A DNA stretch of 40,710 nucleotides from an uncultured Eubacterium sp. GTDB lineage: Bacteria > Bacillota > Clostridia > Peptostreptococcales > Anaerovoracaceae. The notes beneath the pieces are model-generated. The model did no database searches, had not been told where the DNA came from, and was given only the letters and a program-made list of their open reading frames with translations. Below, piece after piece: positions 36,238-40,710 of this stretch (positions are counted from its first letter, which is position 1; each line of letters starts with the position of its first letter). The stretch spans positions 1-40,710 of the forward strand of contig CAMNSS010000021.1 of the NCBI GenBank assembly GCA_946555345.1, written 5' to 3'. Position numbers and translations under genes: made by a program.

Positions 36238-36954
36238 TCAGAGGAAATGCAGTGTATCGCTTTTCAGCAGCGCCGGGATCAGGCTTTCCTGCACCTTGTA
36301 TTTATCGACAGGGTTGCGTTTTCCTGGCACGCGTTCCGTTCTGTCGTGTTTAGCGATGCCGATGAGATAAAAATGGTCATTGTTTTGGTCATAAATACAG
36401 GTGATCCTATGAATCCCATCGCTTCCCTTGATGCCGAGCGTGCTGGTGTCGGAGTGTACGGTGTTGTGGTAGAATACGCCGGGGCTGAGATCTCCCCGCA
36501 ATCTGCTGGCGGATATCCCGCTTGCGTTCGCACAGGCCGCTGCATCGGGTGCAGTAAATCCGAAACGGGCAGTGAGGGCCGCTTGGGAGGCTGCACTGCC
36601 ATCTGCCAGGATCGCACCGTCAGCCCTTACAGCGGGCAAGGCGGCAGGGGGAGGTGGCGGGATGGCGGGAACGCGTATGCCGACAATCAGGTTTTGCAGA
36701 TAGCCGCCGATCAAATCGGAATTTTCCCGCATATTCGGTACGGTGAGGAGGCTGATGGCAGTGGCAAGGATGCTGTTTGGCGCAGCGGGGGCGGGCAGGT
36801 TCAGGATAAAGGCATCGATCATCGTGATGAATTTACCGGTATCAGGTAATCGGTAATGGCTGTTGGCAAAGCGTCGTATTTCTTCTTTGAGCTGGGACGA
36901 ATATCTTGCAAAGAACGAAGCGACTGCCGTTTTGTCCCTTCCCCTGAAGATCAT
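36238..36954 (-). CDS. Uncharacterised modular protein with proline linker (238 aa), last gene of the DUF2589 operon
   Basis: I do not recognise this protein. Residues 1-90 look helical, starting RGRDKTAVASFFARYSSQL. A proline-rich hinge VPAIPPPPPAALPAV (about 94-108) and an Ala-rich region follow. The C-terminal 75 residues (GIHRITCIYDQNNDHFYLIGIAKHD, and YKVQESLIPALL) form an alpha/beta unit whose His/Arg-rich strands recall small RNase toxins of RelE type, but this is only impression. GAGGG is 6 bp before the ATG, which overlaps the DUF2589 stop by 4 bp. The modular build (helical head, Pro hinge, compact tail) would suit a delivered or tethered effector; this is inference. Confidence 0.75.
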   Translation of the reverse strand: MIFRGRDKTAVASFFARYSSQLKEEIRRFANSHYRLPDTGKFITMIDAFILNLPAPAAPNSILATAISLLTVPNMRENSDLIGGYLQNLIVGIRVPAIPPPPPAALPAVRADGAILADGSAASQAALTARFGFTAPDAAACANASGISASRLRGDLSPGVFYHNTVHSDTSTLGIKGSDGIHRITCIYDQNNDHFYLIGIAKHDRTERVPGKRNPVDKYKVQESLIPALLKSDTLHFL

Positions 36955-37523
36955 CCTTTGCCCTCGATCGGTTCAATGGCGGCCGCCAGTATGGTTGTGA
37001 GCTTTGCCATGCCTTCTGCTGGAGGCTGCTGCGCCGCCCTGGCAAAGATGTCGTACTTTGCACTTTTATCGGTTGTCCTGGTGTGCTCGCGCGTCGTCGT
37101 GACAGAGCCGGAAATGTTGGCGGTAAAGCCCCAGCCTTTATAGCCGAGCGAGCTTTTGCCTTCTTCCGTCGTGCTGCTTTTATCGACGTCCTGTGTTTTG
37201 ACCTCCATGGAAAAGTTTACGGTCGCCTCCTCCATGGTAAATGCGGGAACGGGAACGAGCGATAGAATTGGCGCTTCCACGTCCACCGTTACGGTATCGG
37301 TCGTTCCGTCGCTGTTGACAATCGGCCGGTTTAATTTGAATTTAATGGTTCTCGTCTTGTATTCATCCGTTTGTTTGTCGTATTCAAACGCAAGCTCAAA
37401 TAAGGTGTTGAGATATACGTCGCACAGTGCGGCTTGGCCTTTGGCGACCTCTAAAATGGGCTGGCTTACAAGAAGGCCGAGCGGAAGGCCGGTAAATTCG
37501 TTGCTCAGGTTTGTATCAGGCAT
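36951..37523 (-). CDS. DUF2589 domain protein
   Basis: The 190-residue product fits DUF2589: FTGLPLGLLVSQPILEVAKG and QAALCDVYLNTLFELA at the N-terminus, beta strands with VEAPILSLVPVPAFTMEEAT and VNFSMEVK in the middle, a Ser/Thr-rich region (SGSVTTTREHTRTTDKSAKY), and ARAAQQPPAEGMAKLTTILA at the end. No enzyme motif, signal peptide or membrane helix is seen. The family is uncharacterised as far as I know. The second in-frame ATG (37523) was chosen as start because AAAGGAG is 9 bp upstream of it and only 3 bp from 37529. It is the third gene of a four-gene minus-strand operon. Confidence 0.85.
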   Translation of the reverse strand: MPDTNLSNEFTGLPLGLLVSQPILEVAKGQAALCDVYLNTLFELAFEYDKQTDEYKTRTIKFKLNRPIVNSDGTTDTVTVDVEAPILSLVPVPAFTMEEATVNFSMEVKTQDVDKSSTTEEGKSSLGYKGWGFTANISGSVTTTREHTRTTDKSAKYDIFARAAQQPPAEGMAKLTTILAAAIEPIEGKG

Positions 37524-37543
37524 GGCCATGTTCTCCTTTCTAA

Positions 37544-37990
37544 TTAAAAATCAATGTGATCTAACATTTTTTGCGTTGCCCGTGCCTGCCCTTCGGACTG
37601 CGGGGCGCTTTCAAAAATTAATTCAATCGTTCCGTTTCGAATATCTGTACTTTCGGGTTGTGATGATTCGACGTTCATCAGGACTTTTTTTGTTTTTGCG
37701 TCCTCGTATACGTTTCCGCTGATGGTTACTTTGACTTGTTTAAGCCCGATTGTTTCGTGGGATGTCATTGCGGCGAGGGGAACGTCGATGTACTTGTCTT
37801 TCTCTTTGGATTTGAGGGAAAAGCGGATTGCCTTGGGGGAAAGCGCAGTGTTGCTTTCGTTTGGCAGTACCGAGTCGGAATCCTTTTTCTTAAAATACCG
37901 CATATACCGTTCGACATCTTGCAGGGAGAGGATTTCCTGCGCTTGTTGGATCGATAAACCGATGGCGGTGAAAAGCTTGCCGATTTCCAT
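37544..37990 (-). CDS. DUF2589-like partner protein (about 148 aa)
   Basis: The product has a helical N-terminus (IGKLFTAIGLSIQQAQEIL), then beta strands. DVPLAAMTSHETIGLKQVKV and TIELIFESAPQSEGQARATQ line up loosely with the DUF2589 pattern of its neighbour (central PL...P...I..V strand pair and a final ESA/RAAQ-P/S-EG helix), so the two may be paralogous subunits. It has no known catalytic residues. AAAGGAGG is about 10 bp before ATG 37990; ATG 37999, overlapping the upstream gene by 4 bp, is possible but too close to the ribosome binding site. It is separated from the DUF2589 gene by 14-20 bp. Confidence 0.75.
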   Translation of the reverse strand: MEIGKLFTAIGLSIQQAQEILSLQDVERYMRYFKKKDSDSVLPNESNTALSPKAIRFSLKSKEKDKYIDVPLAAMTSHETIGLKQVKVTISGNVYEDAKTKKVLMNVESSQPESTDIRNGTIELIFESAPQSEGQARATQKMLDHIDF

Positions 37991-37995
37991 TTGTG

Positions 37996-38232
37996 TCATC
38001 CCTCCTTTTGTTGCAGATGGTAGATCATTGCGTTATCGATATTATATTTTTGCTGTAGCTTCGCGCAGTCTGTGCCAACCTCGACGATGCGGTGATTGTC
38101 AGCGCCCGCAATGGGCGACCATACGGCATATCGTCCCATCGTAACGGACCTGCCGCCTATTTCTTTCGTTTGCTCGCTCCCCAAGTCAGTGATGAAGCAC
38201 TTCCCTTTGTTTCGCATTGCCCAATCCTCCAT
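37996..38232 (-). CDS. Small protein (78 aa), first gene of the DUF2589 operon
   Basis: I do not recognise the family. The 78 residues start MEDWAMRNKGKCFITDLGSE and include GRSVTMGRYAVWSPIAGADN, with two Cys residues (K-C-F and T-D-C-A) and a short C-terminal helix. There is no signal peptide. AAAGGAG lies 8 bp before the ATG. It immediately precedes the DUF2589-like gene and would be cotranscribed with the next three genes. I found no convincing sigma-A promoter in the 250 bp upstream. Confidence 0.7.
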   Translation of the reverse strand: MEDWAMRNKGKCFITDLGSEQTKEIGGRSVTMGRYAVWSPIAGADNHRIVEVGTDCAKLQQKYNIDNAMIYHLQQKEG

Positions 38233-40528: not shown

Positions 40529-40710
40529 TGCGGAGCGCCGCCCTGAAAGCAGGCGGCATCCGTGCAAAGGAATCCCAGGTTCCGTCTTGCACACTTTTTT
40601 TATAGCATAGGGAATATCGGGGGAGATATTCCCGTATGCTTCAAAGAAAGCACAATGCGGAGCGCCGCCCTGAAAGCAGGCGGCATCCGTGCAAAGGAAT
40701 CCCAGGTTCC
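40529..40710. repeat. 127-bp-period direct repeat upstream of lgt, running out of the window
   Basis: Positions 40529-40583 and 40656-40710 are identical over all 55 bases, and the second copy is cut by the window end. Each copy holds an imperfect hairpin (GCCGC/GCGGC arms around CTGAAAGCAG) and the 12-mer GAAAGCAGGCGG also found twice near 21923-22021. The repeat lies just upstream of the lgt ribosome binding site. Confidence 0.85.
40610..40633. promoter_or_regulatory. 9-bp inverted repeat near the lgt promoter
   Basis: GGGAATATC (40610-40618), six bases, GATATTCCC (40625-40633) is a perfect inverted repeat. On the minus strand it lies directly before TATGCTATAAA, a probable lgt -10 region, so it may be an operator; it lies inside the 127-bp repeat unit. 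Confidence 0.5.

Follow-up and report, generated by a model that had tools for sequence, protein, structure and literature searches.

In type VI secretion, adaptors and chaperones (DUF4123, DUF1795/Eag and DUF2169) are conserved small proteins encoded beside changing effector genes. Holin–endolysin release (type 10 secretion; TcdE-type) groups wall hydrolases and toxin-like genes round one small module and concerns enzymes with no evident signal. In polymorphic toxins a single part is conserved and the toxin-like parts joined to it change, nuclease types among them. The four-gene operon analysed here (P1, D1, D2 and P4) is like each of these in those respects, yet it lacks a defining feature of each, and we file it as a new kind. 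No system described in the open-access literature fits P1-D1-D2 with an exchangeable enzyme. In that literature DUF2589 is almost absent and PF11655 is absent (subscription papers and preprints lay outside the scope); one paper records a run of DUF2589-related genes, AF0414–AF0417, in Archaeoglobus fulgidus (PMC3949148). The description of the DUF2589 family (PF11655), of which D2 is a clear member, gives no function and mentions neither P1, D1 nor exchangeable partners. This family without known function emerges as the constant half of an arrangement that recurs, in which a DUF2589 pair is accompanied by a small third protein and one exchangeable enzyme. Since the neighbouring genes reveal the partner, the family becomes directly testable.

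The operon lies in a window of 40,710 nucleotides, the whole stretch of DNA analysed (Table 1). Four tightly packed minus-strand reading frames had been predicted there, and all four sit where expected. Of two 4-bp overlaps originally claimed, that between D2 and P4 is present (4 bp, ATGA), while that between P1 and D1 varies with the D1 start: the simple gene caller from which our gene starts come places it at 37990, leaving a 5-bp gap to P1, as in the relative L029. Just one overlap is thus certain. D1 and D2 are spaced by 14 bp.

Table 1. The four packed genes at 36238–38232 on the minus strand of the window, and two protein regions discussed in the text.
Feature	Position	Strand	Description
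P1	37996..38232	-	78 aa; first gene; small conserved protein; ORF
D1	37544..37990	-	148 aa; DUF2589-like; 151 aa if the start is 37999
D2	36951..37529	-	192 aa; DUF2589 protein, Pfam PF11655
D2 residues 17-47	37389..37481	-	Long helix in the AlphaFold2 model; residues 25-47 amphipathic across the family
P4	36238..36954	-	238 aa; exchangeable partner; proposed toxin-like cargo
P4 C-terminal domain, residues 108-238	36241..36633	-	Antiparallel sheet preceded by two helices; proposed to be RNase-like

The G+C content of the operon (0.515) is close to that of the window (0.516). A YchF-type GTPase is encoded upstream on the same strand, and genes for an ABC ATPase and an FtsX-type permease lie downstream on the opposite strand; in these flanks no phage genes were seen and no defence genes were recognised by eye or by Pfam search. 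The prediction that the four genes form one unit is supported. The operon is more than a chance arrangement, because P1, D1 and D2 recur together in nine loci and because non-synonymous divergence from L029 is well below synonymous divergence for D1 (pN 0.214, pS 0.749), D2 (0.039, 0.764) and P4 (0.278, 0.823). Elsewhere in the window, an exact 55-bp direct repeat (40529–40583 and 40656–40710, 127 bp apart) lies upstream of lgt, its second copy at the window end.

Relatives were drawn from genome contigs (best 80 of 136), viral contigs (best 80 of 190), plasmids (4 records) and class genomes (10 stretches). The 80 viral loci were cut to 18 representatives, 62 being redundant at 90%, giving a survey of 112 loci, of which 94 are bacterial (the window among them) and 18 viral. 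Loci L001–L018 (short copies of loci fetched longer) and L193–L221 were dropped throughout. The sorting into long-type, Treponema-type, P1-type and other loci is our own, and the neighbour-family scans took the top 25 families each, with members not named.

A second DUF2589-type gene stands beside D2 in 104 of the 112 loci and on the same strand in 102, a count made without L044 (same contig as L021) and with L022, close to L021, retained. No second DUF2589-type gene was detected in L056 and L024, in which D2 is near a contig end, or in L027 and L028, which carry a truncated DUF2589. Our models found no D1 in L065, L039, L023 and L026, though these lie away from contig ends, and in L023 and L026 a neighbouring gene can be aligned with D1. 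The truncated genes of L027 (6662–6883) and L028 (6118–6339) encode 73-aa proteins with, by eye, a double-glycine-type leader followed only by the DUF2589 N-terminal helix region; they have the same neighbours in two genomes of one genus. Six Treponema loci (L040, L041, L042, L043, L045 and L046) have D1 with two D2 genes, and all six also have a DUF261 gene and a gene for a roughly 313-aa protein, which by eye resembles a pentameric ion channel and has no Pfam match. On the Vibrio plasmid pVDT1 (L111/L220), D1-D2-S9 adjoins genes for a C39-peptidase ABC transporter and HlyD, and a gene annotated as a TcdA/TcdB-type glycosyltransferase is nearby. Downstream of another Vibrio D2, at L065:2816–3265, is a protein assigned by eye to the SUKH type (immunity-like).

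The original prediction had recognised a DUF2589 protein and noted that the adjacent protein resembles it; both points are borne out. D2 matches Pfam DUF2589 (PF11655) at 91.9 bits (E = 6.9e-26), well over the cut-off of 23, which places it in the family, and D1 reaches 17.3 bits (E = 0.0064), which leaves it below that cut-off and outside formal membership. Aligned with hhalign, the D1 and D2 families nevertheless match at 98.3% probability (E = 1.4e-14, 152 columns). By this alignment, D1 and D2 are distant homologues, and we read them as diverged paralogues. The AlphaFold2 model of D2 has a mean pLDDT of 71.4 and a pTM of 0.49, and gave no significant fold match.

A third small gene accompanies the pair, and it differs by setting: P1 in 9 of the 112 loci, S9 in 62 and a zinc-ribbon-like gene in 18/18 viral representatives, as detected by D1, P1, S9 and zinc-ribbon models built from these same loci. 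P1 has no significant match in Pfam, NCBIfam or PHROGs and none in 381 other class genomes. Related ORFs occur in nine of the surveyed loci only, every time beside D1-D2, and their alignment has 15 invariant columns over six rows. In L029 (7300–7535), an in-frame stop and a change of frame interrupt P1; D1, D2 and P4 stay open.

If the four genes were a system, their homologues should be neighbours in other genomes. P1, D1 and D2 do stay together, and the association is conserved in distant taxa and viral contigs, but P4 accompanies them in 3/9 P1 loci. The fourth position is P4-like in the window, L029 and L030; an HNH protein in L031 and L032 (PF01844, E = 5e-6 and 8.8e-5); a protein with a GDHQPP motif and cysteine pairs in L035 and L036, and in pieces in L034 (E = 4.2e-37 and 1.1e-6); and a 140-aa orphan in L033. 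A tree of the nine D2 proteins has three supported groups (window with L029, L031 with L032, and L034–L036), and L030 and L033 are unsettled in it. As each supported group has one partner type, partners are exchanged between clades and not within them. The fourth gene is an exchanged one, with no fixed member.

Partners vary beyond the P1 loci as well: an Exo_endo_phos protein in L019, a GIY-YIG-like protein (below cut-off) in L021, a cytidine-deaminase-type protein in L042, and HNH with amidase in L092, with homologues in L101. The gene for the GIY-YIG-like partner is intact in L021, and in the near relative L022 (8791–9385) it is broken up into two short frames. We found no docking part shared by the partners, and the N-termini of P4 and the HNH proteins are unlike by eye. 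The partners are not uniformly signal-less, because a nuclease neighbouring the viral pair in L141/L145 begins with a signal-like stretch (by eye) and the L021 partner has a borderline hydrophobic stretch (1.63).

P4 itself has no significant match in Pfam, NCBIfam or PHROGs and no significant fold match. The proline stretch behind the hinge ascribed to it is present, at about residues 94–107. Our best reading is that P4 is a putative toxin-like cargo; its fold suggests, weakly, that it is perhaps an RNase, the candidate fold being of the Barnase/RelE-like (BECR) kind, and any activity, perhaps RNase-type, would probably reside in the C-terminal half. Its homologues are those of L029 and L030, with none in plasmids, phages or viral contigs. 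Among 391 class genomes, 17 besides its own match at E 0.1 (best E = 0.0034). Two candidates raised by the C-terminal model alone were rejected: L196 (E = 0.00016), where the match is a pair of weak fragments within a single very long frame, and L199 (E = 0.0034).

With one fixed pair and exchangeable enzymes, a scaffold or carrier is the simplest reading. We propose, at a probability of roughly 0.4, that P1-D1-D2 forms the conserved core of a module that handles cargo, with P4 as its present cargo. Several results weigh against this reading: the loci that have D2 and no detected D1, the partners with signal-like or hydrophobic stretches, the failure to find a shared docking part, the absence of a significant fold match for D2 and P4, and the P1-type and Treponema-type loci, described below, in which no hydrolase was found. 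This arrangement departs from polymorphic toxins, in which a toxin is fused to a conserved trafficking domain: here the conserved part consists of separate genes and not of a fused domain, P4 has no family match, and no cognate immunity gene was recognised by eye in the P1 loci. It departs likewise from type II toxin–antitoxin systems, in which the antitoxin changes with the toxin, because the P1-D1-D2 families are unchanged beside at least three unrelated partner types.

The same exchange could mean that P1-D1-D2 restrain a toxin-like enzyme in the producer until phage infection or damage sets it free, which would make them a generic inhibitor or an abortive infection device. HNH, P4-like and deaminase-type partners would suit suicide effectors, the P1 loci contain no cognate immunity gene visible by eye, and the D2 stop overlaps the P4 start, an overlap of stop and start being seen in many toxin–antitoxin operons. 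We nonetheless consider this explanation unlikely, given that P1, D1, D2 and P4 have zero matches in PADLOC-DB 2.0 at E 0.01, that no defence neighbours are recognised by eye beside the window operon, and that the wall hydrolases found beside other pairs are ill-suited to a cytoplasmic suicide device. Beyond these four proteins, PADLOC gave only weak matches, for L031 (PtuB, 1.2e-4) and L037.

These hydrolases are concentrated in the long-type loci, mostly from Lachnospiraceae. In 39 of 51 such loci a match to a peptidoglycan hydrolase occurs no more than 1.5 kb from the pair, and among those with 1.5 kb of flank available on both sides the figure is 34/39; these, like all our hydrolase frequencies, are raw counts with no matched random loci as baseline, made without L022, L044, L027 and L028, and part of the long-type matches are weak (E 1e-5 to 1e-7). 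Other bacterial loci have one in 5/24 within 1.5 kb (7 within 5 kb) and viral representatives in 5/18 (7 within 5 kb). The ten hydrolase queries were taken from the loci being counted, so several matches in the small groups are the queries themselves: L092, L077, L110, L112 and L026 among the seven positives of other bacteria, L121, L176, L179 and L113 among the seven viral ones, and one (L067) of the 39 long-type positives. Pfam or PHROG supports the viral hydrolases of L113, L121, L176 and L179, and that of L192 matches L113's. None was found near the pair in seven Treponema-type loci, or in nine P1-type loci even within 5 kb (flanks are short in some).

Proximity to hydrolases raises the question of lysis. 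Were D1 and D2 membrane-active, with a holin or spanin role, the toxins and wall enzymes would be passengers freed by lysis. Besides the hydrolases of long-type and viral loci, this draws on small membrane or coiled-coil proteins that look by eye like holins or spanins near some viral modules, and on D2 itself, whose helix 25–47 has a hydrophobic moment above shuffles (z>1) in 52/52 family rows and whose region 125–149 has an alternating pattern in 48/50. Many soluble proteins have amphipathic helices and strands, however, and hydropathy detected no membrane segment in P1, D1, D2 and P4 of the window (highest 19-residue mean 1.34), hence no transmembrane holin of the kind that defines holin–endolysin release. 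Together with the P1-type loci, which have no hydrolase, and with D1 and D2 of viral locus L130, which match no known lysis families, this makes a lysis factor rather unlikely. Carriage, restraint and release by lysis are all compatible with these data.

Viral contigs supply relatives 37–42% identical to window D2 (best 80 of 190), and a major head protein gene (phrog_138, E = 1e-72) immediately precedes the module in L130. The arrangement is apparently the same in L143, judged by likeness and from two Gp23 members in the neighbour-family scans. D1 and D2 might accordingly have begun as virion proteins of uncultivated tailed phages that bacteria took over, the enzymes being passengers. That origin is improbable: the neighbours in the other viral representatives are by eye not capsid genes, 50,697 phage records hold no match to window D2, L130 D2 or L130 D1, and no phage genes were seen alongside the window operon. 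In L145 (8663–9412), the viral D1 contains an insertion with matches to endolysin families, which is likely a domain for peptidoglycan binding.

Contractile injection was considered as a delivery route and rejected for this genome on two markers. The window's genome, 96% complete, matches neither the contractile sheath (PF04984; present in 5/11 DUF2589 genomes) nor the eCIS core (PF13699; 4/11), which makes a contractile machine unlikely here and, with no sequence link, separates the operon from type VI adaptors. The relative L026 lies among eCIS-type genes by eye, and the eCIS core was found on its contig.

Under the cargo-handling reading, D1 and D2 would probably assemble into a hetero-oligomer that includes a third, small protein, namely P1 here, S9 in many bacteria and the zinc-ribbon-like protein in viruses. 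This oligomer would bind the product of the single enzyme gene next to it, which in Lachnospiraceae and some viral contigs is often a peptidoglycan hydrolase and in the window's clade a toxin-like protein, and may keep it soluble or inactive in the producer. The enzyme would then be brought to or through the envelope, or released on lysis. A broader version, possible though doubtful, is that paired DUF2589 proteins are an undescribed cargo module of bacteria and uncultivated phages: a phage-type enzyme carrier that gut bacteria such as this one would have turned into a toxin delivery or release device with no contractile machine, and that handles wall hydrolases or toxins according to setting. 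If carriage is correct, this would be a new way of handling hydrolases and toxins; if restraint is correct, a new generic inhibitor. In either case the module may represent a means, so far undescribed, of carrying harmful enzymes or keeping them in check.

Use of the module may be regulated in the long-type loci, as suggested by STAS homologues in 34/51 and SpoIIE/HATPase homologues in 33/51 (domains named for L067); nothing similar was seen beside the window operon. In L067 (9387–13419) and relatives, the long-type operon continues with STAS, GNAT and dCache-HAMP-SpoIIE-HATPase genes, a set resembling partner-switching regulators.

The nearest relative, L029 (Erysipelotrichales), is 66% identical in D1, 94% in D2 and 54% in P4. 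Recent transfer between L029 and the window's genome was rejected despite the D2 value, as synonymous sites have reached saturation (pS 0.76) and the two loci differ in G+C (0.516 vs 0.413). For a MutY-type protein of L029 (so named by eye), the best counterpart in the window's genome shares 49% identity. The likeness in D2 may reflect old transfer or strong constraint. D2 matches occur in 0/36 other genomes of the genus, and with the window's own genome counted, DUF2589 is found in 11/391 class genomes and the D2 profile in 2/398 phylum genomes; the distribution of the operon is sporadic.
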